This document shows positions 1,069-63,787 of a stretch of DNA of 64,000 nucleotides, in pieces. The DNA is taken from assembly GCF_041361345.1 (NCBI RefSeq), contig NZ_JBGKAD010000004.1, positions 1-64,000 on the forward strand. The letters run 5' to 3'. The notes under the pieces are model-generated. The model worked only from the letters and a program-made list of their open reading frames with translations, ran no database searches and was not told the origin of the DNA. Origin of the DNA: Halobaculum sp. MBLA0147. Lineage in GTDB: Archaea; Halobacteriota; Halobacteria; Halobacteriales; Haloferacaceae. A program made the translations under genes and the position numbers. Positions within the stretch are counted from its first letter, which is position 1, and each line of letters starts with the position of its first letter.

Positions 1069-1092
1069 TTTGTGAGTCCAGATGTGGATGAG
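1069..1092 (+). promoter_or_regulatory. 24-nt block before RPA-associated gene
   Basis: Reads TTTGTGA-GTC-CAG-ATGTGG-ATGAG, keeping the fixed 7-3-CAG-6-5 layout of the repeated block. It lies 83 nt before the chosen ATG at 1175, so this transcript would have a leader. Confidence 0.5.
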
Positions 1093-1132
1093 AGGCATCG
1101 AGACGAAGCCACTCGCGGTTCACGGTCGTGGT

Positions 1133-1156
1133 GCGGTTGCGGTTGCGGTTGCGGTT
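1133..1156 (+). repeat. (GCGGTT)x4 hexanucleotide repeat
   Basis: Four perfect tandem copies of GCGGTT lie in the leader between the 24-nt block and the ATG at 1175. The frame stays open through the repeat from 1082, but the translation there is low complexity and unlike the family N-terminus. Slippage could change leader length. Confidence 0.8.
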
Positions 1157-1174
1157 CCGATACTGGTGATTCCA

Positions 1175-1873
1175 ATGACTGACAACAACAACGTCATCGA
1201 CGCCGAGGAGGAGTTGAACCTGACCAATCGCACTGTCGCTCGCAAGGCGTTCGGCGAGGAGATCAACGCCGTTCGCGGCTCTGTCGAAGTGCCGGGGGAC
1301 GGTGAGTACGATCGGAAGTTCCACCTGCTCCCGAGCGGTGCTGCTGCCGGGCGTGTCCACATCGTCGGCGCGCTCACCCGCGTCGATGAACTCGACAACG
1401 ACGCGAACACGATCATCGCGGAGGTGAACACGGACCAGCACAGCGGGAAGGTCACGCTGCTCGTCGGGCAGCGCGCCGACGGCGTGCGGTCGCAGATCAC
1501 CAACGCTGACGTGCCCTCGTGGGTGTCCGTGGTCGGGAACCTGAACGTGCGGAACCCCGAGGAAGACGATGTTGACGAGTTCGATGTCTCGCTCGATGTC
1601 GAGTCGTTCGCCGAGGTCGATCAGCAGCGCTACAAGAGTTGGGTGGCGCGGACGGCAGAGCAGACGCTCGATCGGATCGAGCGTCGCGAAGCGGGTGCCC
1701 AGCTCATCCTTGAGAAGGATGGCGAGGAGATGGACCTGATGGTCGGTGCGGAGGCTGGCGATCTGGCCATGCCCGACTTCCGGGACTCCATCGCGAAGCT
1801 GCTCGAAGACGAGTTCGATGTCGGCGGCCCCGATCCCGAGGCGAGCGGGGCGGCGGAGGCGGCCGCAGACTAG
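1175..1873 (+). CDS. RPA-associated protein (RPAP)
   Basis: 232 residues, matching the haloarchaeal RPA-associated protein family (COG3390 type) that is normally co-encoded with RPA and helps form the ssDNA-binding complex. Recognisable features are the TNRTVARKAFGEEIN opening, an OB-like core (KFHLLPSGAAAGRVHIVGAL) and a long C-terminal helical part ending in an Ala/Glu-rich tail. I chose ATG 1175 because the 31 extra codons available from 1082 translate the GCGGTT repeat and look non-coding. It lies 139 nt after the RPA stop. Confidence 0.82.
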   Translation: MTDNNNVIDAEEELNLTNRTVARKAFGEEINAVRGSVEVPGDGEYDRKFHLLPSGAAAGRVHIVGALTRVDELDNDANTIIAEVNTDQHSGKVTLLVGQRADGVRSQITNADVPSWVSVVGNLNVRNPEEDDVDEFDVSLDVESFAEVDQQRYKSWVARTAEQTLDRIERREAGAQLILEKDGEEMDLMVGAEAGDLAMPDFRDSIAKLLEDEFDVGGPDPEASGAAEAAAD

Positions 1874-2325
1874 GGCCGCCTCCAGGGCACGAGTGGTCTT
1901 CCCCTCACCGCTCACTCCCTCCGCTCACCGCGCGATTGCGCGCCGTCTCGCGGCGCACAGATCGCTCGGGTTGCTGCGGTCTCCTGCTGACTGCTCCCTC
2001 CACCCGCCTGAGCGCTGCGCTGCGCCGCTCGCCTCTCACCCCGAAGGTTCATGGTGGCGCTGTTCGCACGCTCTCACTACGGCGATACACCGGCTTCTCG
2101 CCCGGATCTCAGACGCGGACTTCTGTGCCTGGTTGTGGTCGCGCTGCTGGTGAGTAGTTCGCTCCGCGGTCCGTGCCCAATTACACCTGAGGACCTCGCG
2201 AGTGTCTGAAAACGGCAGTGTAGTGGTTCGATTCCAGCGCCAGGCGTGCTCCCTCCGAGGGTGAGCAGGCTCAGTACGATACGGATCTCCACATTAATCA
2301 CTTATCGGAGAACGGTATCCAAACG

Positions 2326-2382
2326 GCTCTGTGCGAGCAAGGTTCGACTCCTGCAGGGAGCGTGGCGGACACTCCCCGCCAC
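2326..2382 (+). ncRNA. tRNA-like minihelix plus hairpin (imperfect)
   Basis: Five-pair acceptor-like stem 2326-2330/2357-2361 (one G-U) encloses a T-arm with stem 2337-2342/2350-2354 (one bulged A) and loop TTCGACT at 2343-2349. It is followed at once by a perfect 7-bp hairpin, 2362-2368/2376-2382. Same layout as the elements near 8.4, 26.5, 27.2 and 27.7 kb but less perfect. There is no anticodon arm, so it is not an ordinary tRNA. Confidence 0.5.
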
Positions 2383-2530
2383 ACACCCGCTGAGAAAGCG
2401 GCGAACCACGGCCGATACACCTCCGTTGCACCCACCCATCTGCCGGGACCGTGAGTCGCTGGGCCCCGGTGGCACCGGGGAGCTCACCCCAGTTCACCAC
2501 GAAAGTGCAAGTTGCAGATGGGCTTCTTCA

Positions 2531-2571
2531 CTCTCCAGAGGCTGACGCTCGGTTCGACTCCGAGCGGAGAG
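2531..2571 (+). ncRNA. tRNA-like minihelix
   Basis: Acceptor-like stem 2531-2536/2566-2571 (6 perfect pairs), a 10-nt linker and a T-arm with stem 2547-2552/2560-2565 and loop TTCGACT (2553-2559). The 3' strand of the T-stem runs directly into the acceptor 3' strand, as in a real tRNA. No D-arm or anticodon arm. A strong hairpin follows (2579-2616). Confidence 0.65.
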
Positions 2572-2578
2572 CATTCCC

Positions 2579-2616
2579 GTCTTCGCGAGAGCTGACCTGT
2601 CGCTCGAAGCGAAGAC
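2579..2616 (+). other. Hairpin after tRNA-like element
   Basis: Eight perfect pairs, 2579-2586 with 2609-2616, enclosing a 22-nt loop. It occupies the same place as the hairpin that follows the other minihelices. No T-tract follows, so a simple terminator is not evident. Confidence 0.5.
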
Positions 2617-2655
2617 CCCACAGTGAGTGCTTTGTGGGGGAGGCAGCGCCTCCCC
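2616..2655 (+). other. Two overlapping GC hairpins
   Basis: CCCCACA (2616-2622) can pair with TGTGGGG (2633-2639), while GGGGAGGC (2637-2644) pairs with GCCTCCCC (2648-2655) around a 3-nt loop. The two share three bases, so both cannot form completely. This may be a terminator or a pause. Confidence 0.45.
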
Positions 2656-2670
2656 GCACCGTCCCGTCCC

Positions 2671-2690
2671 GCACCGCACCGCACCGCACC
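2671..2690 (+). repeat. (GCACC)x4 pentamer repeat
   Basis: Four perfect tandem GCACC units in the non-coding region, with a further unit at 2656-2660. Confidence 0.75.
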
Positions 2691-2703
2691 GCTCCGCTGA
2701 TCT

Positions 2704-2790
2704 GCCTCCCGCCGAGGCCGGAGGCCACTGGCGTGGCCTCCCCCTCCTGCGGTGCTCGCGAGGCTGCGCTCCTCGGCGTGCGCCGGAGGG
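2704..2790 (+). repeat. 87-bp direct repeat, copy A
   Basis: Near-identical to 3333-3419, with about nine differences by eye and no length difference. It contains internal palindromes such as GGAGGCC...GGCCTCC and ends with CTCGGCGTGCGCCGGAGGG. A fragment of the 3' end recurs at 4082-4102. Copy A lies just before the gene at 2852. Confidence 0.8.
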
Positions 2791-2827
2791 ATCAGCTTCT
2801 TTGTGGCGGTAAGCGTTCGCGACGCCA

Positions 2828-2851
2828 TTGGTCCATCCAGAGGAGACTGAG
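2828..2851 (+). promoter_or_regulatory. 24-nt block (diverged 7-mer)
   Basis: TTGGTCC-ATC-CAG-AGGAGA-CTGAG directly before ATG 2852. Spacing is exact although the TTTGTAC part has diverged. Confidence 0.5.
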
Positions 2852-3022
2852 ATGTCTCTCAGCAAGGATGCGGCGACGACCCCGAAGGTGGACCGCGCGG
2901 TGACCAGTACGCACAGCCCGGTTGAGGAGCCGGTGGTGGCAGCGGTCAAGCGGGCACAACAGACTGTTCGGCGACACTTCGAGGCGGACACCCTGCGGGA
3001 CGCGCTCACCCAGGCAGAGTGA
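2852..3022 (+). CDS. Small acidic protein, unknown
   Basis: 56 residues, no recognised family. The start MSLSKDAA is fixed by the 24-nt block that ends on the ATG. The C-terminal half (EEPVVAAVKRAQQTVRRHFEADTLRDALTQAE) is predicted amphipathic helix and could mediate protein contacts. No cysteines and no membrane segment. Confidence 0.6.
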   Translation: MSLSKDAATTPKVDRAVTSTHSPVEEPVVAAVKRAQQTVRRHFEADTLRDALTQAE

Positions 3023-3111
3023 CGGGACTCGGTGTGGGTGAGTGTCGTCAGGCAGGGAGCTAGAGTAGTGTGACATGACCGACATCAGCGTCTCGAACGG
3101 AGGTGATACAC

Positions 3112-3285
3112 ATGAGACAGCCACACCAAGCCAGCGTGACGTGCCAGTCGTGTGACCGGGTGCGTGAGGTGCCAGCGGCCGCCACAGACGCGGTCGGTGG
3201 TGAGTACACCTGTCGGTACTGCCGACGGGACATCCCGACGCCCGAAGACATGCGTCACGAAGAACCGGACAGCATCCGGACGTGA
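3112..3285 (+). CDS. Zinc-ribbon microprotein
   Basis: 57 residues with two CxxC pairs (CQSC and CRYC) about 24 residues apart, a typical small treble-clef or zinc-ribbon fold. A near-perfect Shine-Dalgarno, GGAGGTGAT at 3099-3107, sits 4 nt before ATG 3112, unusual in this window where most genes carry the 24-nt block instead. Function unknown; such proteins often bind nucleic acid or act as adaptors. Confidence 0.65.
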   Translation: MRQPHQASVTCQSCDRVREVPAAATDAVGGEYTCRYCRRDIPTPEDMRHEEPDSIRT

Positions 3286-3699
3286 CGCTCAAGCGGGTGG
3301 ACCGCTCCCGGATGTCCGGTGTATCGTACCGAGCCTCCCGCCGAAGCCGGAGGCCGCTGGCGCGGCCTCCCCCTCCTGCAGTGCTCGCTGCGCTGCGCGC
3401 TTCGGCGTGCGCCGGAGGGGAGGGTTGTGGCCATCGTGCGAACCACTTCCTGGAGGCGCTGGCGACCCAGCCGCCGTCCGCGGTGGCGGCACCGACAGCG
3501 GGGCGGTGCCGCGGCCCGCGGCCGGCGACGGGCTCGCCGCTTCACCCGGAGACCGAACAGGCTCCTCGTTACGAGACGCAGGGGGTGAAGGCGCGGGGTG
3601 GCCTCCCTGCGGTCGGCCACCCCCGGCTTGCGCCGGCCCTCAGACCACGTTCCTCTTCGGGCGCACCATCACTCCCCTGCGTCTCGTGGCCACTCGTCG
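3286..3699 (+). other. Intergenic region with repeat copy B
   Basis: About 410 nt, very GC-rich, with no frame that looks like protein. It holds copy B of the 87-bp repeat and several inverted repeats of the type GGCCGGCGC. Nothing else recognised. Confidence 0.5.
3333..3419 (+). repeat. 87-bp direct repeat, copy B
   Basis: Partner of 2704-2790, about 630 bp downstream. Together they bracket the genes at 2852 and 3112, so recombination between them would delete both genes. Confidence 0.8.
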
Positions 3700-3915
3700 A
3701 TGTTCGGTCTCCTCTACCTTACCGCGTTTCTGATGTCGAGTCACGTGAGCAATGGGTCGCACTCTCGTCGAGAACTCTGCCTGCGGGCACTGCTGTGGAC
3801 AGGCGTGGGGAGTCTGGTGGTGACGACGCTGGTGGTACTCCCACCGATGAAAGCGATACCCGTCCTACTGTCGCTGGCGGGCAGTGCTCTCTTCTATGGT
3901 CTGACCGCACTCTAA
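3700..3915 (+). CDS. Small membrane protein
   Basis: 71 residues from MFGLLYLTAF, with two or three hydrophobic stretches (MFGLLYLTAFLM; ALLWTGVGSLVVTTLVVL; AIPVLLSLAGSALFYGLTAL) split by a basic HSRRELCLR loop. No recognised family. The reading frame extends upstream, but those codons translate repeat-like DNA, so ATG 3700 is preferred. No clear promoter seen. Confidence 0.5.
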   Translation: MFGLLYLTAFLMSSHVSNGSHSRRELCLRALLWTGVGSLVVTTLVVLPPMKAIPVLLSLAGSALFYGLTAL

Positions 3916-4005
3916 TCCTCGCAGGCAGGCGGTACGTGGGCGTGGTGCGACCCATCGAAGCCACGGCGGGACATCCCCCGTATCGATCGCCCTCCCCCGG
4001 CGCCC

Positions 4006-4038
4006 GGAGGGGCGGTGGCTACCGCCACCCGCCCCTCC
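4006..4038 (+). other. Strong hairpin
   Basis: 4006-4019 pairs with 4024-4038 (14 pairs, one bulged C) around a TACC loop. No T-tract follows. Possibly a terminator for the membrane gene ending at 3915. Confidence 0.45.
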
Positions 4039-4207
4039 CCCCTCCTCGGCGGCGGTCCGGGGGAACGATCCCCCTCCCCTTGCCTCGGCGTGCGCCGGAG
4101 GGCGGTCGTCCGACGACTGCCGATTCGTAGGTCTGCATGGCGACCCGCTGGTTGAACCAGCTCCCGTTCTCAGCAAGCTCTGTGGAGTCATCCACTCACA
4201 CGGTGTC

Positions 4208-4231
4208 TTTCTTCGTGCAGGTACTGATGGC
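4208..4231 (+). promoter_or_regulatory. Diverged 24-nt block without a gene
   Basis: TTTCTTC-GTG-CAG-GTACTG-ATGGC keeps the layout but no credible gene follows, so it may be a relic of a lost gene. Confidence 0.3.
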
Positions 4232-5075
4232 CACGCAGACAGGATCAACTGGGTGTTCTATCCAGCCGAGAGAGGTGACGGCTGCCCGAACAGGCCTGAG
4301 TCGTTTTCCGGGCACATCAGTGCTCGGCTGGAACTCAACTCTCAGGTGATGCTGTTCGTTCTAAGCTGGACAACCTACCCCTCTGAGGTGCGTCCTTTTT
4401 GAACTCGGACATCTCCAGTCCAGAGAATCCGGTCTCAGCTTAATCGCTCCTCTGTGACCGGGAGTGATCTGCCGAAACCTGCCTCTCCTCAGAGGTCAGC
4501 ATCCTACAGATCACTGCTCAGAGGACCCGGGACGCGTCCGTGAACGAACCAGTACCGATCAAGATGGGACCTGCACCACTCAGCGGTCTCGCCCCTGATC
4601 AGGCCACGACGCCCATCGAAGCGACGACCAACCGCAACTACCTGCGGCTAGCCCCACAACGGCATCGCGATCGCTGACTGGCAGCCACGACTGACCGGCG
4701 ACAACTGACACCTGCGACCACAACGAACCGGCACCCAACAGTCGCGACCACAACTACACTTCGACAACGGGGGGTGCAGCAACAGATCGGGTCAGAGATG
4801 CCGGACATCAGGACCAGCCGACTCAACGGGCGACCACACTCCTGACGCCGCCCAAGAGGCCACAACGACTGCGACCACTGGTTTCTCCCTCCAGTGGCGG
4901 GTGAGATGCACTCGCCCAGTGACGACCGGCGCAAACCGCAACAGCAAACCGCGACCACCCACGAAACAGTAGTATCGATGGAGAAGCACCAGTCAGTGCT
5001 GCACAGAGCCGCGACCGCCATCGGCAGCGTCGGCGACGCGACCGGGACGATTCTCATAGCAGAGCAAGGCGGAAA

Positions 5076-5095
5076 CCCACCCCTTCAGGGGTGGG
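5076..5095 (+). repeat. IS left-end hairpin
   Basis: Eight perfect pairs around a TTCA loop, 90 nt before the tnpB start. Confidence 0.75.
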
Positions 5096-5184
5096 AGGAA
5101 GCCGACACGAGCGGGTGACTAACCACCGTCCGGCAACAGGCTGACTCCCCAACACATATGAGTAAGTAACTATACATATGAGAC

Positions 5185-6429
5185 ATGGAAGTGCGCCGGA
5201 CCGTCCCAGTCACGCTTGACGTGGACAGTCCTGACGCTGCACTTCTCGAAGAGACCATTGACCAGTTCCTCTGGGCAGCGCAGTACGTCACCGACCACGC
5301 CTTCCAAGGTGAGTACGTCACCACCAGCAAGACTACCCTCAACGACGAAACCTACGACGATGTTCGGGAGGCCACCGACCTCCACTCGAACCACGTTCAA
5401 TCAGCCCGCAACAAAGCTGCCGAAGCGTGCAAAGGCGTCGTCGAACGCTGGAAACAGGGCAAGAAGGCCTCGAAGCCACAGTTCACCAGCCCACACCTCG
5501 TGTACGAGTCTCGAACAGCCACGTTCCACGACGACTACGTGAGCCTCGCTACCGTCGACGGGCGAATCAAAGCCGACTACGTACTTCCCGAGAACCCGGA
5601 GAACACGCCCCACCAGAAGTACCTCTTCAACGACGACTACGAGATTACCAGCGCGGAACTCCACCGGAAGCACGGTGAGTGGCAACTTCACATCTGTTGC
5701 ACAGCAGACGTGGAGATCGACACGTCGGCGCAGACAGCCACCGAGAACGGAACGGTTCTCGGGGTTGACCTCGGCGTGAACCAGCTTGCCGTCACCAGTA
5801 CGGGCCAGTTCTGGAGTGGTGACGAGTTCGACCACTGGCGACGAGAATACGAGAAACGCCGGGGTGACCTGCAAGAACACGGGACGCGGTGGGCACACGA
5901 GAACATCCAGTCAGTCGGACGGAAAGAAGAAGGTCGATTCAAACAGACGCTCCATCGTATCAGCAACGAGCTGATCGCAGAGGCTCGTGAGAACGGGTGT
6001 ACGGTGATTGCCTTCGAGGACTTGGCCGATATTCGAGAACGGACTGGTGCATCGTGGGGCCACAAGTGGGCGTTCGACCGCCTGTACGAGTACGTCGAGT
6101 ACAAGGCCGAAGCGTACGGGCTAGATGTCCACCAAGTGAACCCGAAGAACACGTCACGGCGCTGTTCTGAGTGTGGGTTCACCCACCCCGACAACCGGAA
6201 CGGTACGGACTTCGAGTGTCTGAAGTGCGAGTATCAGAACGACGCTGACTACAACGCAGCAAAAAACATCGGTTTGCGGTATCTCCGTGGCACTCAAACT
6301 GAGAGCGACGGAGGCGCACCCGTAGGCGTGCGCTTGAACAGCGGGACGCTGAACGTGAACGGTGAGTATGAATCACCTGCCGACGTGTCGGCCAGAACGG
6401 GCGTCCACGCTGAAAGCCCACCCCTTTAG
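5185..6429 (+). CDS. tnpB: TnpB RNA-guided nuclease (IS200/IS605)
   Basis: 414 residues, full length for haloarchaeal TnpB, the ancestor-like relative of Cas12 that cuts DNA guided by an RNA from the element's right end. All catalytic parts are present: RuvC-I D195 in [11 protein letters not shown], RuvC-II E278 in AFEDLADI, RuvC-III D355 in [10 protein letters not shown], and a four-cysteine zinc finger C327/C330/C345/C348. The N-terminal helical domain ([12 protein letters not shown]) starts at ATG 5185, preceded by ACTATACAT as a probable TATA region. The TAG stop lies in the loop of the right-end hairpin, so guide RNA and coding sequence overlap. The gene appears intact. Confidence 0.93.
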
Positions 6430-6436
6430 GGGTGGG
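6417..6436 (+). repeat. IS right-end hairpin overlapping tnpB stop
   Basis: Perfect 8-bp hairpin with TTTA loop. The last codons and TAG of tnpB fall inside it. In this family the guide (omega/re) RNA ends at the right end. Confidence 0.75.
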
Positions 6437-6440
6437 TTAG

Positions 6441-6813
6441 CTTACCTACCTTGTCGGGTTCGTGTATCTCGGGCTGATCGTGCTTGTTGACGCGACCATC
6501 TTCTGACTCGGCACACAGAGCCCTACGAGTGTAGTTGAAGATACGCATCAACCCGCGACCACTCTCTGATCACGTTCTGTGTCGGAAACCGAGGCCGGAG
6601 GCCCCGGCGGGCTGGTCAGGCCCTCGGAAACCACTACGTGCCATATGCGGGCTCACGCAGCATCAGGGTCCGTCTCTGCGAGCGGGCACCGATGCGGGAT
6701 GCGTGACATCAGGTCCGTCTCTGTGTGTCGGCCCTGATGCACCCGGATGTAGCACACGGTCACCAATACCGTTTATGGCTACTCATCCAGCCACACCACT
6801 GACCAACAGTGAG
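6441..6813 (+). other. Intergenic region with imperfect direct repeat
   Basis: About 370 nt with no credible gene. Two imperfect copies of a unit of about 46 bp starting CATCAGGGTCCGTCTCTG (from 6661) and CATCAGGTCCGTCTCTG (from 6707) lie head to tail. GGAGGCC-type words near 6595 resemble the 87-bp repeat. Confidence 0.5.
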
Positions 6814-6819
6814 TTTTAA
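6814..6819 (+). promoter_or_regulatory. TATA-class promoter
   Basis: TTTTAA lies 31 nt before ATG 6845, the position expected for a haloarchaeal TATA box driving a leaderless mRNA. No 24-nt block here. Confidence 0.5.
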
Positions 6820-6844
6820 GACCTACGCCGTGTGTGTGGTGCGT

Positions 6845-7522: not shown

Positions 7523-7591
7523 AACCCAACACCCACAGTCTTCACCACTGAAGCGGTGACTCCCACGCAGGCACCCGTTCCTCTAGAGCAA

Positions 7592-7615
7592 TTTGTACTC
7601 CCAGGGAGAAGTGAG
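7592..7615 (+). promoter_or_regulatory. 24-nt block
   Basis: TTTGTAC-TCC-CAG-GGAGAA-GTGAG directly abutting ATG 7616; a consensus copy. Confidence 0.75.
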
Positions 7616-8341: not shown

Positions 8342-8402
8342 ACGGAACCCCACACACCCAGAAATTATACACGCACAGCATCAGGTAGACCACATCAGAC
8401 CA

Positions 8403-9548: not shown

Positions 9549-9572
9549 TTTGTACAAACAGAGGAGGGTGGT
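9549..9572 (+). promoter_or_regulatory. 24-nt block
   Basis: TTTGTAC-AAA-CAG-AGGAGG-GTGGT, 26 nt from its first T to ATG 9575. Confidence 0.7.
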
Positions 9573-11341: not shown

Positions 11342-11365
11342 TTTGTATCCCCAGGATGCGGTGAG
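11342..11365 (+). promoter_or_regulatory. 24-nt block
   Basis: TTTGTAT-CCC-CAG-GATGCG-GTGAG. Ten nucleotides later comes the ATG of a 40-residue ORF, with GAGGTGAT as Shine-Dalgarno at 11363-11370. Confidence 0.7.
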
Positions 11366-12071: not shown

Positions 12072-12095
12072 TTTGTTCCAGCAGGAGAGAATGGA
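12072..12095 (+). promoter_or_regulatory. 24-nt block
   Basis: TTTGTTC-CAG-CAG-GAGAGA-ATGGA, ending 1 nt before ATG 12097. The block's own ATGGAC is the analogue of GTGGAC elsewhere. Confidence 0.6.
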
Positions 12096-12934: not shown

Positions 12935-12958
12935 TTTGTATCTCCAGAGGGGAGTGAG
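12935..12958 (+). promoter_or_regulatory. 24-nt block
   Basis: TTTGTAT-CTC-CAG-AGGGGA-GTGAG directly abutting ATG 12959; consensus copy. Confidence 0.75.
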
Positions 12959-14144: not shown

Positions 14145-14169
14145 TTTGTGCATCCAGAATTGAGGTGAG
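14145..14169 (+). promoter_or_regulatory. 24-nt block (one extra base)
   Basis: TTTGTGC-ATC-CAG-AATTGAG-GTGAG abutting ATG 14170, one base longer than usual in the N6 spacer. Confidence 0.7.
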
Positions 14170-16954: not shown

Positions 16955-16978
16955 TTTATACGACCAGATTGGGGTGAG
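16955..16978 (+). promoter_or_regulatory. 24-nt block
   Basis: TTTATAC-GAC-CAG-ATTGGG-GTGAG abutting ATG 16979. The 7-mer has A in place of G at position 4. Confidence 0.75.
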
Positions 16979-18483: not shown

Positions 18484-18507
18484 TTTGTTCTTCCAGGGGG
18501 CAGTGGC
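18484..18507 (+). promoter_or_regulatory. 24-nt block
   Basis: TTTGTTC-TTC-CAG-GGGGCA-GTGGC abutting ATG 18508. Confidence 0.7.
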
Positions 18508-19389: not shown

Positions 19390-19413
19390 TTTGTACGGCC
19401 AGTCTCCAGTGAG
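19390..19413 (+). promoter_or_regulatory. 24-nt block followed by leader hairpin
   Basis: TTTGTAC-GGC-CAG-TCTCCA-GTGAG. GTGAG (19409-19413) pairs with CTCAC (19419-19423), a 5-bp hairpin just before ATG 19429. Confidence 0.7.
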
Positions 19414-21244: not shown

Positions 21245-21268
21245 TTTATGCCAGCAGAGATGAGTGGC
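21245..21268 (+). promoter_or_regulatory. 24-nt block
   Basis: TTTATGC-CAG-CAG-AGATGA-GTGGC, one base before ATG 21270. Confidence 0.6.
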
Positions 21269-21718: not shown

Positions 21719-21742
21719 TTTGTACGCACAGATATGAGTGAG
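21719..21742 (+). promoter_or_regulatory. 24-nt block upstream of tRNA genes
   Basis: TTTGTAC-GCA-CAG-ATATGA-GTGAG ends 26 nt before tRNA-Ser. This consensus copy precedes RNA genes with no start codon, so the block cannot be only a translation signal. Confidence 0.75.
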
Positions 21743-21768: not shown

Positions 21769-21852
21769 GGGGAGATGGCAGAGTGGACTATTGCGCCTGC
21801 TTTGAGAGCAGGTGGCCGTTCGGCCTCCTGGGTTCGAATCCCAGTCTCCCCG
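21769..21852 (+). tRNA. tRNA-Ser(UGA)
   Basis: Complete class II tRNA: acceptor 21769-21775/21845-21851 (7 perfect pairs), anticodon stem CCTGC/GCAGG with loop TTTGAGA and anticodon TGA at 21803-21805, a long variable arm (GGCC-GTTC-GGCC core), T-arm CTGGG-TTCGAAT-CCCAG, and discriminator G, the expected serine identity base. CCA is not encoded. It reads UCA codons and is transcribed with tRNA-Gln 15 nt downstream. Confidence 0.93.
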
Positions 21853-22562: not shown

Positions 22563-22586
22563 TTTGTACTCCCAGCAATAACTGGA
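22563..22586 (+). promoter_or_regulatory. 24-nt block, diverged end
   Basis: TTTGTAC-TCC-CAG-CAATAA-CTGGA. The 3' part deviates, and the next ATG (22683) is 96 nt beyond the block. Could be a relic or give a leader to the TbsP-like gene. Confidence 0.4.
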
Positions 22587-23585: not shown

Positions 23586-23609
23586 TTTGTGCCGCCAGAG
23601 GAGAGTGAG
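23586..23609 (+). promoter_or_regulatory. 24-nt block
   Basis: TTTGTGC-CGC-CAG-AGGAGA-GTGAG abutting ATG 23610. Confidence 0.75.
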
Positions 23610-25123: not shown

Positions 25124-25147
25124 TTTTTGCCGACAGGTGAGAGTGGA
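25124..25147 (+). promoter_or_regulatory. 24-nt block (diverged 7-mer)
   Basis: TTTTTGC-CGA-CAG-GTGAGA-GTGGA, two bases before ATG 25150. Confidence 0.55.
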
Positions 25148-28646: not shown

Positions 28647-28670
28647 TTTATACCCACAGATGTGGTTGGA
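28647..28670 (+). promoter_or_regulatory. 24-nt block, TATA-like variant
   Basis: TTTATAC-CCA-CAG-ATGTGG-TTGGA, 27 nt from first T to ATG 28674. It could serve as a TATA box as well as a block. Confidence 0.6.
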
Positions 28671-30338: not shown

Positions 30339-30362
30339 TTTGTACTTCCAGAGAGGGGCGAG
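30339..30362 (+). promoter_or_regulatory. 24-nt block
   Basis: TTTGTAC-TTC-CAG-AGAGGG-GCGAG, 28 nt from first T to ATG 30367. Confidence 0.65.
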
Positions 30363-32168: not shown

Positions 32169-32192
32169 TTTGTACGTCCAGGGCAGGGTGAG
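32169..32192 (+). promoter_or_regulatory. 24-nt block
   Basis: TTTGTAC-GTC-CAG-GGCAGG-GTGAG abutting ATG 32193; consensus copy. Confidence 0.75.
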
Positions 32193-34207: not shown

Positions 34208-34231
34208 TTTGTATCCACAGAAGTAGGTGAG
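34208..34231 (+). promoter_or_regulatory. 24-nt block plus leader hairpin
   Basis: TTTGTAT-CCA-CAG-AAGTAG-GTGAG; GGGG (34231-34234) pairs with CCCC (34242-34245) just after it. ATG 34254 follows. Confidence 0.68.
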
Positions 34232-34616: not shown

Positions 34617-34640
34617 TTTGTACCGGCAGATACAGACGGC
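34617..34640 (+). promoter_or_regulatory. 24-nt block, diverged end
   Basis: TTTGTAC-CGG-CAG-ATACAG-ACGGC, two bases before ATG 34643. Confidence 0.58.
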
Positions 34641-36096: not shown

Positions 36097-36120
36097 TTTG
36101 TGCTCGCAGTGATCAGTGGA
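36097..36120 (+). promoter_or_regulatory. 24-nt block plus leader hairpin
   Basis: TTTGTGC-TCG-CAG-TGATCA-GTGGA. AGTGGAC (36115-36121) pairs with GTCCCACT (36130-36137, one bulged C). ATG 36148 follows. Confidence 0.7.
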
Positions 36121-37627: not shown

Positions 37628-37651
37628 TTTCTATTCGCAGTGGAAAGTGGA
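37628..37651 (+). promoter_or_regulatory. 24-nt block
   Basis: TTTCTAT-TCG-CAG-TGGAAA-GTGGA, ending 8 nt before ATG 37660. Confidence 0.6.
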
Positions 37652-39752: not shown

Positions 39753-39776
39753 TTTGTACGTGCAGGTGAGAGTGGA
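39753..39776 (+). promoter_or_regulatory. 24-nt block plus leader hairpin
   Basis: TTTGTAC-GTG-CAG-GTGAGA-GTGGA. Just after it, ACACC (39776-39780) pairs with GGTGT (39785-39789). ATG 39835 lies 58 nt beyond the block. Confidence 0.72.
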
Positions 39777-42339: not shown

Positions 42340-42363
42340 TTTATACTCGCATGATGGGGTGAC
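42340..42363 (+). promoter_or_regulatory. 24-nt block (CAT variant)
   Basis: TTTATAC-TCG-CAT-GATGGG-GTGAC, 29 nt from first T to ATG 42369. Confidence 0.5.
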
Positions 42364-46592: not shown

Positions 46593-46616
46593 TTTGTCCC
46601 CACAGGGGACAGTGGA
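46593..46616 (+). promoter_or_regulatory. 24-nt block with long leader
   Basis: TTTGTCC-CCA-CAG-GGGACA-GTGGA; GTGG (46612-46615) can pair with CCAC (46633-46636). ATG 46689 is 72 nt beyond the block. Confidence 0.62.
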
Positions 46617-49654: not shown

Positions 49655-49678
49655 TTTGTACTCGCAGGGCTGAGTGGC
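49655..49678 (+). promoter_or_regulatory. 24-nt block
   Basis: TTTGTAC-TCG-CAG-GGCTGA-GTGGC abutting ATG 49679. Confidence 0.75.
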
Positions 49679-51473: not shown

Positions 51474-51497
51474 TTTCTTCTGGCAGAGTTGAGCGAG
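51474..51497 (+). promoter_or_regulatory. 24-nt block (diverged)
   Basis: TTTCTTC-TGG-CAG-AGTTGA-GCGAG abutting ATG 51498, exact spacing. Confidence 0.6.
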
Positions 51498-53448: not shown

Positions 53449-53472
53449 TTTGTACCTGCAGAGTACAGTGGA
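53449..53472 (+). promoter_or_regulatory. 24-nt block
   Basis: TTTGTAC-CTG-CAG-AGTACA-GTGGA, one base before ATG 53474. Confidence 0.75.
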
Positions 53473-54951: not shown

Positions 54952-54975
54952 TTTGTACCCGCAGAATCGATTGAG
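54952..54975 (+). promoter_or_regulatory. 24-nt block plus leader hairpin
   Basis: TTTGTAC-CCG-CAG-AATCGA-TTGAG. TGAGG (54972-54976) pairs with CCTCA (54982-54986). ATG 55081 lies 105 nt beyond. Confidence 0.68.
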
Positions 54976-55765: not shown

Positions 55766-55789
55766 TTTGTACGCACAGAGGTGGGTGGA
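55766..55789 (+). promoter_or_regulatory. 24-nt block
   Basis: TTTGTAC-GCA-CAG-AGGTGG-GTGGA, 11 nt before ATG 55801. Confidence 0.72.
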
Positions 55790-56757: not shown

Positions 56758-56785
56758 ATCAGTGACTCACCGGCCACACACTCAC

Positions 56786-57241: not shown

Positions 57242-58074
57242 CACTCAACACGACCACTACCGACAAGATCAGTGACGACGCCTTCCTCAGCGAGTGCCAC
57301 CAGTTCATCACGACCACCAAAAAGGCGATGGACGACGTCAAGCAGGCAAACAAGAGTCCTGACCTGATCGAGAAAGCACACCGAGTCGTGGACGACCGCT
57401 CCATCAACAAGTGGAACCACGCCCAGCGGCTGTTCGCTGTGGCTGTGTTCAGCGACTTCACGCCGGGGAAGTACAATCTCCACGAATTCGATGAGATCAC
57501 AGCACCGCAATCGCTGGATGATCTCACTGACAGACTCGCTACTCAAGTGCTGACTGTCACCTGCTACGAAGCACTCGCGGACGCACGAGAAGGGGACTCA
57601 CAGTACCTCACCAACGCCCACGCTGAACTCACCACCCGGTACGGTGAGGTCCTATCGGTCCACGGTTCGGTCGCCCCCAGTGACGGAGAGATCGAAGAAA
57701 CCATCCTCGAACTCGGAACACTCGCTTTCAGAGACGATGTCGCTGTTGATGACTTCTACGCCGTCTACCAGCACATCCTCGAGTATCGACGGGGTGACGA
57801 GAAGTATGCACCTGTCACGGACAACCCAACACTCCGGTGTACCGGTGAAGCCGGCTCACTCCCGCAGATGGGGATTCTTCTTGACAGGTTCGAGGAACAC
57901 GAAGAACAGCTCCTACCGACAGCCCTGTCTAGTGAGGCGTTCAACCCCGACGCTGCTATCGGGTCTCCGGACGGCCCGACGATCGCACGCACTCAAGGGC
58001 CAGCCGGCATCGTCTCACAAATGGCTGTTCTCCCACTCCTCGCGACGGCAACCAGCACATCGGCTACCGCCTGA
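57238..58074 (+). CDS. Unknown helical protein
   Basis: 278 residues, mostly helix (TTKKAMDDVKQANKSPDLIE; LTDRLATQVLTVTCYEALAD). It has an interrupted glycine-rich part near 215. Coupled to the previous gene by the ATGA overlap. No recognised family. Confidence 0.6.
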   Translation: MTLNTTTTDKISDDAFLSECHQFITTTKKAMDDVKQANKSPDLIEKAHRVVDDRSINKWNHAQRLFAVAVFSDFTPGKYNLHEFDEITAPQSLDDLTDRLATQVLTVTCYEALADAREGDSQYLTNAHAELTTRYGEVLSVHGSVAPSDGEIEETILELGTLAFRDDVAVDDFYAVYQHILEYRRGDEKYAPVTDNPTLRCTGEAGSLPQMGILLDRFEEHEEQLLPTALSSEAFNPDAAIGSPDGPTIARTQGPAGIVSQMAVLPLLATATSTSATA

Positions 58075-58157
58075 CCGATACCGGTAACTCCCCCAAACCG
58101 GGTATCTCCTACGTACCCAATCACGCCCACACAAAGTAACAGCGGTCCCAGGCGGTT

Positions 58158-58206
58158 GACCCTCGAAGCTGGCGCTAGTCTGAAGTTCGATTCTTCAGCG
58201 GGGGTT
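58158..58206 (+). ncRNA. tRNA-like minihelix abutting a methyltransferase start
   Basis: Acceptor-like stem 58158-58165/58199-58206 (8 pairs, two G-U), 14-nt linker, T-arm 58080-type geometry at 58180-58185/58193-58198 (6 perfect pairs) with loop TTCGATT. The 3' end is 2 nt from ATG 58209, so cleavage after the acceptor would leave an almost leaderless mRNA. No second hairpin here. Confidence 0.65.
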
Positions 58207-58208
58207 TC

Positions 58209-59036
58209 ATGACGCAGATTCGGACCTCGCCCCGGTTCGACAGGTCGCACTGGCCACAAACGTGGACAGAGAAGTGGCGACCACAGGTTGCCGACTTCTT
58301 CTGTGGCCGTGGCGGCGTCGGTCAGACGTTAAGCCAGTGGTTTCCACGGAATCAGTATTTCGGGGTGGACATCGAACCGTATGGCGACGAATATCCAGGC
58401 CAGTTCATCCAGGCTGACTTGCTCGCAGACGGTAGTCCACCGTTCGATGGAGTCGTCGCAGATCTGATCTGGGTGTCGTGGCCCTGCACGGCCTACTCAT
58501 CGTTGTCCGCGACACACTACGGGAGTGCTGAAGCCGCACTCGAAGAGAACCCACGGATCACTGATGCTTTTCGTGAGTGGTTGCTGGACCACGCCGCTCA
58601 CTACGTGATCGAGAACGTTCCCGGTGCCACACGGCACGGCGACCTAGATGCGAACTGCCGCTGTAATGGCCTGTTCTTCGGGGAACCCTATGACCTTGAG
58701 CGCCACTTCGAGACGACGTTTGAGGTTCCCGATGCGTACGTGGACGGCTCTGCTTCCGTCACGATCGACACGCGAGACGATCAATCGATCAGTAACCTCG
58801 CCGAAGCAAAAGGCGTCCCGCAGTCGTGGGGAAAGCAATCCGTCCGCGAAGCTGTCCCTCAGGAGTTTGTCGGGTGGCTCCTCGGCCATTGTCCCTCCGT
58901 TCCGTTCCCGGTCCCCCCGCTCAAACAGCGCCCACTCACAGAGTTCTCAGAAGACGGCCTCGGTCACCACCGGAGACACCCAGAGTCCCGACTCGGAGGA
59001 ACTGATGTGGAGCCAGGTGACGAACTCTCAACCTAG
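58209..59036 (+). CDS. Small DNA cytosine-C5 methyltransferase
   Basis: 275 residues, the compact phage type. Motif I DFFCGRGGVGQT (29-40), motif IV WPCTAYSSLS with catalytic C93, motif VI IENVPGA with E135, and a C-terminal GVPQSWGKQSVREAVPQEFV that replaces motifs IX-X as in phage enzymes. Short variable region, so its target may be simple. Its leader is a tRNA-like element rather than a 24-nt block. Confidence 0.85.
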   Translation: MTQIRTSPRFDRSHWPQTWTEKWRPQVADFFCGRGGVGQTLSQWFPRNQYFGVDIEPYGDEYPGQFIQADLLADGSPPFDGVVADLIWVSWPCTAYSSLSATHYGSAEAALEENPRITDAFREWLLDHAAHYVIENVPGATRHGDLDANCRCNGLFFGEPYDLERHFETTFEVPDAYVDGSASVTIDTRDDQSISNLAEAKGVPQSWGKQSVREAVPQEFVGWLLGHCPSVPFPVPPLKQRPLTEFSEDGLGHHRRHPESRLGGTDVEPGDELST

Positions 59037-59047
59037 CAGAGAAGGGA

Positions 59048-59070
59048 TTTGTGCCATCAGAGGAGAGTGG
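59048..59070 (+). promoter_or_regulatory. 24-nt block (one base short)
   Basis: TTTGTGC-CAT-CAG-AGGAGA-GTGG abutting ATG 59071. Confidence 0.72.
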
Positions 59071-60258
59071 ATGAGCGCGACACTCGACGACTTCATCGGC
59101 GAGGATACAGCACAGAGCGATGACAAACACGAGCCTGATCCGAGTGACGAGGCCCAAATCCCACCGGAAGACGAGATCACACCGCCCAACATTCGTGGGG
59201 TGACGTGGCGCTGGGGCCCGGACCAGCTTACTGACACCTTCGGCGTTCTACACGGTTGCTCAACCGACAGCGAGGACTTCTCAGGAGACACACTCCACCC
59301 GCCAGGAATCGGCTACGTGGTTTCAACCGCGACTCCCCGCGAACTCAAAGAGATCACGTGTGACACCAGCCTCCTTCCCCCTTCGTCGCTCACAGACGCA
59401 GGCTCACTCAACACTGTCTACCACGAAGTGTCGGCAGGGCGGAATCGGAGGGGTCCGTACGCCTATGGCTACAGCCCGACACTCCAGCGAGAACTCGTCA
59501 AAACCCTCGTCCCTGACAACAAGCAGTACCGACCGGCCGATCTATCGTTATGGTATAACGACGAATTCGGTCTGTTCGCGTCGTACCACGGGACAACGCT
59601 CGTCTGTGCTCCAGAAGGACTCAGTGAACCAGCAGACACCACGCCGGTGACGACGACAACGGTCGAAGACACATCCGTCGAGGACGAAACTCACGAAGAC
59701 ACGCTTACAGGGCTCGCACAGGTGATCGGTGGGCTCCGAGACGCGTTCGGTATCCAAACTGACAGGGTCACCCGAGTAGAGAACGATCTCCAGCTCCACA
59801 CCGACCGGTACGAGGAACCACTTGTGGTGACGGCGTATGACCTCAGCGACATCGAAGCAGCCGAGACCGACCCCGAGGCTCTTGTCGGTGAACAGACGAT
59901 CCCAAAGCACCGGGGCTGCCCAGAACTAACCTATTCGGTCGCTCCTGACACGCTGGAGCGACCCATCGACATCCCTGACCACGATGCGCGCAACGGGGAA
60001 CCGAGATTCAACGTCGGATACAAAATCAACGTGGATCGCCAGACGACTCGGGACACAGACCCGCCAACGTGGGTCGAAGCAACCGTCCGGTACGCTCACG
60101 TCTCGTGGTACGTATCCACCAGAGGAAGCCGCCCCGAACTGAATATCCGAACAACAAACCCGTTCAAGCTGGAAGTCGCCTCGGTCTCGTTCAACGACCC
60201 CCACCCAGTCACGGACCCGAGTTCCCTGTCCACCATCAAGTACCCGGGGATGGGCTGA
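59071..60258 (+). CDS. Unknown protein
   Basis: 395 residues. Acidic disordered N-terminus (DKHEPDPSDEAQIPPEDE), a beta-rich body and a middle acidic linker (TTTTVEDTSVEDETHEDTLT) splitting two domains. The frame stays open far upstream inside the methyltransferase, but the block fixes the start. No recognised family. Confidence 0.62.
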   Translation: MSATLDDFIGEDTAQSDDKHEPDPSDEAQIPPEDEITPPNIRGVTWRWGPDQLTDTFGVLHGCSTDSEDFSGDTLHPPGIGYVVSTATPRELKEITCDTSLLPPSSLTDAGSLNTVYHEVSAGRNRRGPYAYGYSPTLQRELVKTLVPDNKQYRPADLSLWYNDEFGLFASYHGTTLVCAPEGLSEPADTTPVTTTTVEDTSVEDETHEDTLTGLAQVIGGLRDAFGIQTDRVTRVENDLQLHTDRYEEPLVVTAYDLSDIEAAETDPEALVGEQTIPKHRGCPELTYSVAPDTLERPIDIPDHDARNGEPRFNVGYKINVDRQTTRDTDPPTWVEATVRYAHVSWYVSTRGSRPELNIRTTNPFKLEVASVSFNDPHPVTDPSSLSTIKYPGMG

Positions 60259-60270
60259 TGAACTGCAGCG

Positions 60271-60294
60271 TTTGTACCCACAGTGGAGAGTGAG
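60271..60294 (+). promoter_or_regulatory. 24-nt block
   Basis: TTTGTAC-CCA-CAG-TGGAGA-GTGAG abutting ATG 60295; consensus copy. Confidence 0.76.
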
Positions 60295-61536
60295 ATGTCT
60301 GGACAAGCACCACTCGCAGCCTTCACCGACTCAACCAGCGAGGCCGACGAAATCATCTCAGACCAGACTCGGTGTATCGCCGTACGCATCGATAGCCAGT
60401 CGCTCAGGCGATGCAAGAACGATGCACCAACGGGAACTGAGACCTGCCACGAACACGACAACCCAGAGCACACGATCAACGACGAGGGGCTCTCGCTCGT
60501 CAACTTCCTCCTTCGGCGAACTAGTGCCGTCCAGTGTGCCGCTCGTCAGACAGACGGTGAACGATGCCCGAATGGCGCTGGCCTCAACGGCGTCTGCGGG
60601 ATTCACACTGGAGCGACTGATCGAGTGACCCGCCCGCCAACGGAACTCGACCCCCACGCGGTCAAGACCGCTCTCACAACCACACCCAGCCCAGAAGAGA
60701 CGACTCAAAACGACGAGGAGACAGGGCCGCTTTTTACAGCGCCGACACAGATCAGTCCTATTTACGCCAACGAAGTCCCGTTCGCTTCAAACGAACTCGA
60801 GAGGCTCAAGACTGATGTCGGACTGTCCACCGGCATCGAGGTGACACCGCCAGACGATGCGATCGGCACCACGCTCCCGTGCGATCCGCTCCAAGCGCGC
60901 CGCATTGATCTCGCAGAGCGAATCCTCGGTCGTGGCGGAGCTGTAACCGGTTACAGCCACCACACCAGCGTCACCCGCTCAATCTGTAACTGGTATCATG
61001 ACGACAACGGCACGTTCCTACCATCGGCTCCCTCCTGGCTCGAATCTCCTGAAACCGCTTTCCGGCCAGCTGAAATCCGGATAGCGACGTTGAAGGGAGA
61101 TCTCGACGACATCATCGCGAAGGCCGAAACGGTCCTCGCATGGGCTGCCGAAAGTATCGAACAGACTGTCCTCAAAGAGACCGAACAAAACCAGTTTGAG
61201 GCGATGCGAGACCGGTGGGAGAAAGCAGTTGCTGAAGCGAAAGCTGACATCGAACGAGACCGCCTCAGACAGGACCCACCAAAAGAAGTCGAAGGATGGG
61301 AGTGGTACAACACCGAGGACCCAGCAGTCACGGTCGCATATCGCGGGGTGTATCGTGATGAGGAGGTCTTCGCAATCCTTGCCGCAGAGCATGATCGCCT
61401 CGTCATCGTGAACCAAGACGTCGCCGCGTCTGCCGACAGCCCGCTCAGTGAAGTCCCAGCCGACTGCCACATCCCGGCACAAGAGACGGTCCGAGGTCTC
61501 GTCCGGTACCTCCGAGACCACCCCAGTGAGTTCTGA
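60295..61536 (+). CDS. Protein with two N-terminal Cys/His zinc motifs
   Basis: 413 residues. Two tandem zinc-like repeats at 27-56 and 81-106: TRCIAVRI...RRCKNDAPTG-TETCHEH and VQCAARQT-GERCPNGAGL-GVCGIH. Each gives C-x-C-C-x2-H, close to the zinc module in the RPA at 1-1035. A long helical middle (about 255-325) follows. May bind nucleic acid. No recognised family beyond the zinc repeats. Confidence 0.65.
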   Translation: MSGQAPLAAFTDSTSEADEIISDQTRCIAVRIDSQSLRRCKNDAPTGTETCHEHDNPEHTINDEGLSLVNFLLRRTSAVQCAARQTDGERCPNGAGLNGVCGIHTGATDRVTRPPTELDPHAVKTALTTTPSPEETTQNDEETGPLFTAPTQISPIYANEVPFASNELERLKTDVGLSTGIEVTPPDDAIGTTLPCDPLQARRIDLAERILGRGGAVTGYSHHTSVTRSICNWYHDDNGTFLPSAPSWLESPETAFRPAEIRIATLKGDLDDIIAKAETVLAWAAESIEQTVLKETEQNQFEAMRDRWEKAVAEAKADIERDRLRQDPPKEVEGWEWYNTEDPAVTVAYRGVYRDEEVFAILAAEHDRLVIVNQDVAASADSPLSEVPADCHIPAQETVRGLVRYLRDHPSEF

Positions 61537-61557
61537 CTCCCACACACTCTCTCAGTG

Positions 61558-61581
61558 TTTGTATCTGCAGATGAGAGTGGA
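61558..61581 (+). promoter_or_regulatory. 24-nt block
   Basis: TTTGTAT-CTG-CAG-ATGAGA-GTGGA abutting ATG 61582. Confidence 0.75.
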
Positions 61582-61929
61582 ATGACTGAAGGCAATCCAG
61601 TAGCAACCATCGAGTGTACCGACAGTCCCGACGGACGTGAGACAGCCGCCACCCTGCGCCAGACGCTAGACGCACTCGGCTTCACGGCTGAAGAAACCGA
61701 CGAGGGACTTGCCGTCTCACTTCCAGAAGAATCCCATCCCCCAAGTGAACAGGCACACATCATCGTAAACCTCGCAGCCAACGCTCCCCACTCTGCAGGT
61801 GATCCAGAAAGCGTACTGGACCACCTAGCGGACGCACCTGGCTTCGACTGGATCGATGTATCGGTTCTTGACGCCGAAGTCGAAACTGGCAACTCACACA
61901 TCGTGACAGCAACCAACCCGACCCAGTAG
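61582..61929 (+). CDS. Small acidic protein, unknown
   Basis: 115 residues; alpha/beta (ETAATLRQTLDALGFTAEET; AHIIVNLAANAPHSAGDPES). First of a cluster with the next gene and TFB. No recognised family. Confidence 0.6.
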   Translation: MTEGNPVATIECTDSPDGRETAATLRQTLDALGFTAEETDEGLAVSLPEESHPPSEQAHIIVNLAANAPHSAGDPESVLDHLADAPGFDWIDVSVLDAEVETGNSHIVTATNPTQ

Positions 61930-61986
61930 GACAGAGTGTCCAGCTAGCAGCATACTGAGCCATCCAAACACTCCGATCCACCACCC

Positions 61987-62346
61987 ATGAGTACGCTAAC
62001 CGGCTCCCGCCCGACCGCACTGAACTGTCGAGAATCGATCTTCAGGGTCACGCTCGCCGTGGCTGCCGCTGAAACCGCCCTAGAAGCAATGCACGAAGAA
62101 TTGCCTAACTGGGAAGTCGACGTTGACGAGTCGTCGACTCCACAGGTAGAACTGACCAAACAGACTGTCGCCCGCTCGCAGGCGCAAGCGCTTCATCGGG
62201 TCCACGAAGCACTCGACGCGCAGATGGAAGTCGGCGCCGAAGCCGGAGCTGAGTACGTCGTGACTGGCGTCAAAGTAATTGCCGTCAGTGGGCCAGTCGC
62301 AAAGCAAGAAGACGACTATCGAAACTCCCTCGACATCTCTGAGTGA
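61987..62346 (+). CDS. Small helical protein, unknown
   Basis: 119 residues, two long Ala-rich helices (LAVAAAETALEAMHEELPNW; AQALHRVHEALDAQMEVGAE) and a final strand YVVTGVKVIAVSG. Lies 12 nt before the TFB gene, likely co-transcribed. No recognised family. Confidence 0.6.
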   Translation: MSTLTGSRPTALNCRESIFRVTLAVAAAETALEAMHEELPNWEVDVDESSTPQVELTKQTVARSQAQALHRVHEALDAQMEVGAEAGAEYVVTGVKVIAVSGPVAKQEDDYRNSLDISE

Positions 62347-62358
62347 CCACTCCCCCCG

Positions 62359-63309
62359 ATGCACAGTCTCTCCCGACAGGACTCACCGGCCGCAGGGCTC
62401 GACGCAGCCCAAGCAGACACGTGCGACGAGTGTGGCGGCACCATCGTGCAACAGGACGGCGACCTCCTGTGTGAGGAGTGTGGCCTCCTTATAACCGACA
62501 CGCAGATCGACCACGGTCCTGAATGGAGGGCGTTTTCCTACGAAAAAGGCCAGTCCCGATCACGAACCGGCCCGCCAGTCACGCATACGTACCACGACAA
62601 CGGATTCTCAACGAAGATCGGTGGTGATAGTGAAAAGATCGGCGGCGACCGGCCATCCGGCCACGAGCAGTTGTTCAAACGGCTCAACAAGGAGAACGAG
62701 ACAGAAGAGAAGTTTGGGAACGGCGAGATCATTCGTATCAGCACGGCAGTCGGGTCGTCTGATGTCGTCACCGAGACGGCAGCCAAGCTTTTCAGCCAAT
62801 TTCGAGACCAGAGTAACCTCAAAGGACGATCCATCGAAGCCTTCGCAACTGCAACGGTATGGGCCGCAACACGCATTCACGACGAACCGCTTGTGAAGTC
62901 GCGGCTCAACCGCGTCGCCCGAATCTCAGAACAACGCTGGATGCGAGCGTATCGGGATCTCTCAGAAACGCTCTCAGTCGGAATCCCCCCAGTCAACCCA
63001 CAGCAACTACTCGGCCAGGCGCAGGAGATGGTCGGGTTCGGGATCGAGACTCGACAGTACGCAGAGTCGCTCATCGCAGAGTTTCCCGCTGCAAAAATGA
63101 CAGGCTCCCCGCGATCTATCGTGGCCGGAGCAGTGTACCTCGCCAGCCGTCTTGCATCACCGACAGAAACACTCACTCAGAGGGAAGTCGCCACCAGCAT
63201 GGATTGCTCCGCCACGACGGTTCGGAACTGGTACCGGAAGCTTCTGGCCAGCACAGGACGACAGGCAAAACTAGACAGAGAACAGACGACCATTCAGGTG
63301 TATGCCTGA
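62359..63309 (+). CDS. tfb: Transcription factor B (TFIIB homologue)
   Basis: 316 residues, typical TFB length. N-terminal zinc ribbon C22/C25/C38/C41 (CDECGG, CEECG); B-reader/linker with GPEWRAFSYEKG and RTGPPVTHTYHDNGFSTKIG; two cyclin-like repeats (about 115-205 and 210-305), the second ending in a helix-turn-helix TQREVATSMDCSATTVRNWYRKLL that in this family contacts the BRE next to the TATA box. TFB recruits RNA polymerase. It may redirect transcription to the element's own promoters. Its stop overlaps the next ATG. Confidence 0.92.
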   Translation: MHSLSRQDSPAAGLDAAQADTCDECGGTIVQQDGDLLCEECGLLITDTQIDHGPEWRAFSYEKGQSRSRTGPPVTHTYHDNGFSTKIGGDSEKIGGDRPSGHEQLFKRLNKENETEEKFGNGEIIRISTAVGSSDVVTETAAKLFSQFRDQSNLKGRSIEAFATATVWAATRIHDEPLVKSRLNRVARISEQRWMRAYRDLSETLSVGIPPVNPQQLLGQAQEMVGFGIETRQYAESLIAEFPAAKMTGSPRSIVAGAVYLASRLASPTETLTQREVATSMDCSATTVRNWYRKLLASTGRQAKLDREQTTIQVYA

Positions 63310-63751
63310 CCGCTCCCAGTCCGTCGTGGAGAAGATGAGGGCCGCCGTTTCAGAAGAGCTCACAGAAGCGGGGGGGAAGCAAGACACCGCCGGTGGAACA
63401 GACACCGGCAGCGACACCGTTGATCAACAGCAGGTGGCAACACAATCGACACTCCTCACTGGCGTTGCACGCGGTCTCCCGGGTGAATCCCCACCTGACC
63501 TTGCTGAGCACTACTATCTCAAAACGAGTTCGCCACTCCGCACTCCAACTCCAGTGAAACTCCTGTTCGGTGGGACTGCTCTCCTCATCGGCGTGTGGTA
63601 TACCTCCGTGTGGCTCAACCTCCCGACAGAGCCGTTCTATCTCATCGCTCTCGTTCTCGCTCCACTCCTCCTCGTCGCGATCGCCGTCGACATCAGTCTC
63701 CGCTGTGGAGGACTTCTGTTCCGACATACTGAGATCGGCGACACGGAGTAG
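63302..63751 (+). CDS. Membrane protein with cytoplasmic N-terminus
   Basis: 149 residues: a charged, partly helical N-terminus of about 80 residues, then two spans (LLFGGTALLIGVWYTSVWLN; FYLIALVLAPLLLVAIAVDI). Start overlaps the TFB stop by 8 nt, so it is coupled to TFB. No recognised family. Confidence 0.6.
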   Translation: MPDRSQSVVEKMRAAVSEELTEAGGKQDTAGGTDTGSDTVDQQQVATQSTLLTGVARGLPGESPPDLAEHYYLKTSSPLRTPTPVKLLFGGTALLIGVWYTSVWLNLPTEPFYLIALVLAPLLLVAIAVDISLRCGGLLFRHTEIGDTE

Positions 63752-63763
63752 GCGCGAACAGCG

Positions 63764-63787
63764 TTTGTGCTGGCAGGTGACAGTGGA
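63764..63787 (+). promoter_or_regulatory. 24-nt block plus leader hairpin
   Basis: TTTGTGC-TGG-CAG-GTGACA-GTGGA. GTGGAC (63783-63788) pairs perfectly with GTCCAC (63795-63800). ATG 63808 follows. Confidence 0.74.

Follow-up and report, generated by a model that had tools for sequence, protein, structure and literature searches.

We describe a rigid, asymmetric sequence block of about 25 bp that stands on one strand at the starts of transcription units in Halobaculum sp. MBLA0147. The stretch analysed, referred to below as the window, comprises bases 1-64000 of contig C4 (226,510 bp; NZ_JBGKAD010000004.1), one of six contigs in this haloarchaeal genome of 4.29 Mb; C4 is probably a large, circular plasmid of conjugative type. 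On balance, the block probably acts as an alternative core promoter that is used element-wide by the host RNA polymerase, most likely together with a divergent TFIIB-like factor encoded at 62359-63309.

The original prediction described about 35 forward-strand copies of the block between positions 1069 and 63764, and this was confirmed. When up to 3 mismatches were allowed, the consensus TTTGTAC-N3-CAG-N6-GTGRR matched the window 41 times, 39 of them on the forward strand, against 3.9 ± 1.95 matches in dinucleotide-shuffled sequence (maximum 9 across 100 shuffles). A matrix refined on C4 found 79 sites, all on the forward strand, of which 37 lie in the window. For cross-validation, a matrix was built solely from the 42 C4 sites outside the window; at a threshold score of 16 it recovered 36 of the 37 window sites on the forward strand and none on the reverse strand. 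Positions 0-2 (TTT), 4 (T), 10-12 (CAG) and 20-21 (TG) are near-invariant, 69/79 copies (87%) have G or C as their fourth base and 10/79 have A or T, and the 3′ end reads GTGAG, GTGGA or GTGGC. The preceding base is a purine in 91% of copies, so that the block is one base longer upstream and takes the extended form RTTT[G/C]TAC-N3-CAG-RGG-N-GRG-TG-RR. The sequence is non-palindromic, and its three conserved clusters are spaced about 10 bp apart, i.e. on the same face of the helix. With the exception of the ATG itself, the 40 bases on each side are nearly unconserved. Therefore, the copies are individually maintained by selection and are not pieces of a long repeat or of large duplications.

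The block is almost absent from the rest of the genome. By its own terms the original prediction would have been refuted if the matrix had matched host promoters equally often; at a score of at least 16 there were 74 matches on the forward strand of C4 and 0 on its reverse strand, but only 2 across 380 kb of the chromosome and 1 across 220 kb of plasmid C5. With no more than three matches in 600 kb, the block is nearly absent from host sequence. A genome-wide pattern search likewise placed 52 of its 57 matches on C4. Within C4 the blocks fill one arc of 118 kb, which begins at about 207 kb and runs past the ends of the contig as far as about 98 kb; on the other arc 2 forward-strand genes have a block and 46 do not. 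A de novo search for gapped pairs picked out the C4 block immediately (log10 p -33), and found nothing comparable in C5, C6, the chromosome or two relative plasmids. Many haloarchaeal plasmids hold relatives of single C4 proteins. Among eight plasmids that have the VWA protein in common with C4 and six that have either the giant transfer protein or PolB in common with it, only scattered matches with 2-3 mismatches were found, on both strands, and no array. Exact-pattern scans of viral contigs and 84,980 species genomes returned isolated matches and no second array; the recurrent haloarchaeal match among them lies in a conserved chromosomal stretch, apparently antisense within a coding gene. 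A literature search found no paper describing the block.

A few copies elsewhere in the genome deserve mention. Near-perfect blocks at C1:1508308 (on the chromosome), C2:159460 and C5:13491 each precede a homologous small regulator-like gene (PadR-like by eye); in all three the block is accompanied by a conserved stretch and the ATG lies about 30 nt downstream. They may reflect an earlier use of the signal. A lone block at C6:34787 precedes a gene whose start resembles that of the block gene at C4:208896, a likeness that suggests exchange between plasmids of one cell.

The position of the block relative to genes points to transcription and not translation. At all ten sites listed in the original prediction the ATG does lie exactly 24 nt past the first T. 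Across the 79 sites only two arrangements, of which this spacing is one, share the highest frequency (offset +0, n = 17; offset +2, n = 17; 0.7 expected for each, p about 6e-19), but it is not a rule, with offsets varying from -1 to 105 nt. The ATG falls at -1 to +5 in 48/79 copies, whilst the remaining blocks are followed by leaders of 15-105 nt. In the leaders of seven genes in-frame stops separate the block from the ATG, and those ATGs that fall within a block open segments that score as non-coding. The 3′ GTG is conserved in near-ATG and far-ATG copies alike, and one copy precedes a tRNA gene. A ribosome-binding or start-codon signal is expected at a fixed short distance and always ahead of an open reading frame (ORF); neither was observed. 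Moreover, of the 63 forward-strand arc genes that have a block only 1 is 25 nt or less from its upstream gene, compared with 30 of the 69 that lack one (p = 3e-9). The variable leaders, the tRNA case, the retained GTG and the non-abutting genes together match the pattern expected for a transcription start signal and not for a ribosome-binding site. The suggestion that it marks the start of transcripts is thus supported, and promoter function is well supported by these sequence patterns.

Archaeal promoters are generally viewed as a TATA box and a B recognition element (BRE), read by the TATA-binding protein (TBP) and transcription factor B (TFB). In haloarchaea the TATA box is A+T-rich, lies about 27 nt upstream of the start and has A or T at the fourth base of TTTAWA. 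Genes of the chromosome, of C5 and of the other arc of C4 all show the corresponding peak of A+T content, roughly 32 to 26 nt ahead of the ATG. In block genes, the A+T-rich positions are solely within the block, which places them 5-7 bp nearer the ATG than a TATA box of the host; neither the position nor the fourth base is that of a canonical TATA box, and no second conserved element of TATA or BRE type was found at a fixed position around the block. The claim that the block differs from an ordinary haloarchaeal promoter therefore held, given the missing A+T box at about -28 and the G or C at the fourth base. Two promoter classes thus coexist on C4, the block in its arc and the ordinary A+T box in other genes. 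A reading of the block as a regular host promoter was rejected on its near absence from the chromosome and C5 in the matrix scan and from the genome in the pattern search.

The original prediction had proposed a dedicated polymerase or factor. The polymerase was not borne out: the sole Rpb1-type match in the genome is chromosomal, a motif scan of the C4 proteins gave no convincing catalytic motif, and none of the scanned C4 proteins matched an RNA polymerase family, although the T7-like family PF00940 was not searched genome-wide. Since a divergent TFIIB-like protein is encoded on C4, an initiation factor dedicated to the block is plausible. Its gene (62359..63309, forward strand) is the only one of its kind on C4 and lies within an operon that starts with the block at 61558. 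In the protein, an N-terminal zinc ribbon (PF08271, E = 5e-11) with invariant C22, C25, C38 and C41 is followed by two cyclin-type repeats (PF00382, E = 1e-12); phmmer matches it to archaeal and human TFB cores, and a helical core is predicted with moderate confidence. Its best identity to any TFB among 392 genomes of the order is only 35-40%, and searches that included these genomes found no close relative. It keeps 53 of the 90 residues invariant across five host TFBs, and the linker that joins its ribbon to its core lacks about 9 residues relative to them. From family membership the factor is predicted to bind TBP, DNA and RNA polymerase, and it is the most likely reader of the block. Four distant relatives are found on viral contigs too short for motif work. 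Two features set the C4 protein and another element-borne TFB, that of OP630575.1 (19941-20873), apart from the five host TFBs, namely the motif HDNGFST[KR]IG and a shortened linker. We raise as speculation that the shortened linker accompanies the shortened distance from promoter to start, and keep it so because a viral short-linker TFB comes without a detected block. A divergent TBP-like match, with one repeat detected, lies on plasmid C5 (193642-193854).

We propose that the block, as a signal in double-stranded DNA some 25 bp long, would position the host RNA polymerase so that transcription starts either at its 3′ edge or slightly upstream. Where the ATG follows at 0-5 nt the products would be leaderless or very short-leader mRNAs, and otherwise mRNAs with longer leaders, or the precursor of a tRNA. 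The host TBP/TFB pair would read the block poorly, given its fourth base of G or C and its position 5-7 bp closer to the start codon, whereas the TFIIB-like factor of the element, acting on the host polymerase with or without TBP, would recognise it from one face of the helix. Recognition of one face of double-stranded DNA is suggested because the clusters lie about one helical turn apart and there is no hairpin. The factor gene is itself in a block-headed operon and may therefore form a self-reinforcing switch, which would drive the DNA-modification, replication and uncharacterised genes of the single 118-kb arc. That such a regulon serves establishment after transfer is a reasonable guess, made because the leading regions of bacterial conjugative plasmids, where these are co-directional, carry methyltransferases and anti-defence genes (PMC11541004). 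More tentatively, and with the odds leaning against it, the block could represent a class of TATA-less core promoter in which a plasmid TFB, possibly without TBP and with an altered promoter-to-start geometry, reads the contiguous 25-bp block and retargets the host polymerase to the 118-kb regulon.

Several points weigh against an alternative core promoter read by this factor. The start-site position at the block is a prediction from the sequence. About 26 arc genes without a block have an upstream gap of more than 60 nt and must use another signal. No relative carrying both factor and block was found, so the two are linked by co-occurrence on C4 only, and no comparable repeated block was seen in the tailed haloarchaeal virus with a short-linker TFB (45 genes, giving low power). 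Moreover, most C4 proteins belong to no known family, so another reader of the block could be among them.

The strongest competing explanation, which we consider unlikely, is that the block is an operator, at which a plasmid repressor or activator acting over a weak start site switches establishment genes, as on the Bacillus plasmid p576. A repeated regulatory sequence ahead of many operons, methyltransferase operons included, does resemble the repressor-controlled regulon of clade II of the pLS20 family (PMC8708921), and C4 encodes other DNA-binding proteins, e.g. a TbsP-like regulator and one that has winged-helix matches. However, the lack of a second TATA/BRE element at a fixed position means that the block would have to be operator and promoter both, its asymmetry is not that of a palindromic operator, and it often starts only 12-20 nt past the preceding stop codon. 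Somewhat less probable still is that TTTGTAC is a variant TATA box, unusually spaced but read by the TBP and TFBs of the host, and that CAG and GTGRR are accessory elements. It begins with TTT, is the sole A+T-rich stretch and lies 24-26 nt from the ATG in leaderless genes, but the predominance of G or C at the fourth base, a location 5-7 bp too close when compared with the host A+T window of about -31 to -26, and the scarcity of the block in host sequence all argue against this.

An action of the block in RNA, as a cleavage site or translation enhancer that makes leaderless mRNAs from long polycistronic transcripts, is improbable. Nearly all genes are co-directional, most blocks lie in short intergenic gaps and the purine-rich 3′ half resembles a ribosome-binding site; against this stand the range of ATG spacings, the copy before a tRNA, the retention of GTG where the ATG is far away, and a cluster spacing of about one helical turn, which fits recognition of DNA. 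We give very little credence to a single-stranded-DNA promoter of the Frpo/ssi type on the strand entering the recipient in conjugation. The one-strand genes, methyltransferases and giant coupling-protein-like ORF do resemble leading regions (PMC11541004), but such a promoter needs a hairpin, and the surroundings of the blocks fold like random positions (mean z -0.35 vs -0.38); a hairpin reading was rejected on this result. Scarcely credible at all is an unrecognised polymerase encoded on C4, for which a contiguous, asymmetric 24 bp of T7-promoter-like size and the many C4 proteins without a family could be cited, but for which the searches described above yielded no candidate.

The 37 copies in the window, all on the forward strand, are as follows. 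The ATG is at +0 for the blocks at 2828..2851, 4882..4905, 7592..7615, 16955..16978, 18484..18507 (an RNase H-like gene), 23586..23609, 32169..32192, 49655..49678, 51474..51497, 60271..60294 and 61558..61581 (heading the operon with the TFIIB-like gene). It is also at +0 for 12935..12958, where it opens an ORF of only 30 codons unless the block has a leader to a later gene, whilst 11342..11365 has either a GTG at +0 or an ATG at +9. Offsets of +1 are found at 12072..12095, 14145..14168, 21245..21268 and 53449..53472, and of +2 at 9549..9572, 25124..25147 and 34617..34640. Single copies have the ATG at +3 (28647..28670), +4 (30339..30362, a C5 DNA methylase gene), +5 (42340..42363, an N6/N4 methylase gene), +8 (37628..37651), +11 (55766..55789), +15 (19390..19413), +20 (63764..63787), +22 (34208..34231) and +27 (36097..36120). 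At 59048..59071 the ATG is at -1 and overlaps the last block base. Longer leaders of about 58 nt (39753..39776) and 72 nt (46593..46616), both with an in-frame stop, 82 nt (1069..1092, to the ATG at 1175), 96 nt (22563..22586) and 105 nt (54952..54975) were also found. The block at 21719..21742 has no ORF start and lies 26 nt upstream of tRNA-Ser(TGA) (21769..21852, forward strand), and a weak copy at 4208..4231 has no clear ORF.

The first base of C4 is the start of an ATG, which suggests that a circular molecule was rotated to a gene start. Family scans identified a family B DNA polymerase, a PCNA-like protein, a primase, a PilB-like ATPase and several DNA methyltransferases on C4, and no capsid or terminase families among the proteins scanned. 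A protein of 3375 residues (C4:195926-206053) contains TraG/TraD-type motifs and weak primase-like motifs; Halobaculum plasmids carry relatives of comparable size. Members of the block regulon include methyltransferases, RNase H-like and RlaP-like proteins and many proteins of unknown family. DNA-modification genes are unusually dense, at 14170-46216 of the window and among other arc genes, the set on the arc comprising two C5 methylases and N6, N6/N4 and D12-type methylases; weak Mom-like, TGT-like and DpdC-like matches were also seen among arc genes. A TnpB-type protein (5185-6429 of the window; Cas12f1-like TNB and OrfB_IS605 domains) lies in the block-bearing arc without a block of its own.

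Haloarchaea have many TFB genes, some of them plasmid-borne, and their promoter preferences are hard to distinguish. C4 appears to have swapped the TATA/BRE grammar for its own 79 times, beside ordinary promoters on the same molecule, and so offers a natural system in which to test cleanly how a TFB controls promoter choice and start-site distance. The set of blocks could possibly also serve as orthogonal promoters for haloarchaeal genetics.

Parts of this arrangement have counterparts in other mobile elements. Like C4, the haloarchaeal virus HRTV-DL1 and Acidianus rod-shaped viruses 2 and 3 encode their own TFB-like protein, and ORF43 of HRTV-DL1 has been proposed to recruit the host RNA polymerase (PMC10544981). 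The linker is shortened in the HRTV relative as in the C4 factor; however, identity to the latter is only about 27%, and no repeated block was seen in the HRTV stretch examined. In SIRV1 and SIRV2 a GTC element occurs in the majority of promoters and has been proposed to be element-specific (PMC5569661), but it sits downstream of a canonical TATA box, whereas the C4 block appears to replace TATA and BRE. The EGeRS1 and EGeRS2 sequences of the pLS20 family similarly coordinate many operons of a conjugative element (PMC8708921). That family is bacterial, EGeRS1 spans 400-600 bp and contains inverted repeats, and EGeRS2 is repressor-dependent, in contrast to a block of 24 bp with no inverted repeat and about 79 copies. 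Poxvirus VITF-3, a TBP/TFIIB-like partner, is again an element-encoded TFIIB-like factor with a part in promoter recognition (PMC12917281); there it works with a viral RNA polymerase, whilst on C4 only the host enzyme was found. Element-encoded initiation factors are therefore already known in principle, and the C4 system would be more novel if its factor works without TBP. Taken together, none of these known systems combines a self-contained non-TATA block with a TFB of the element's own, as C4 does.

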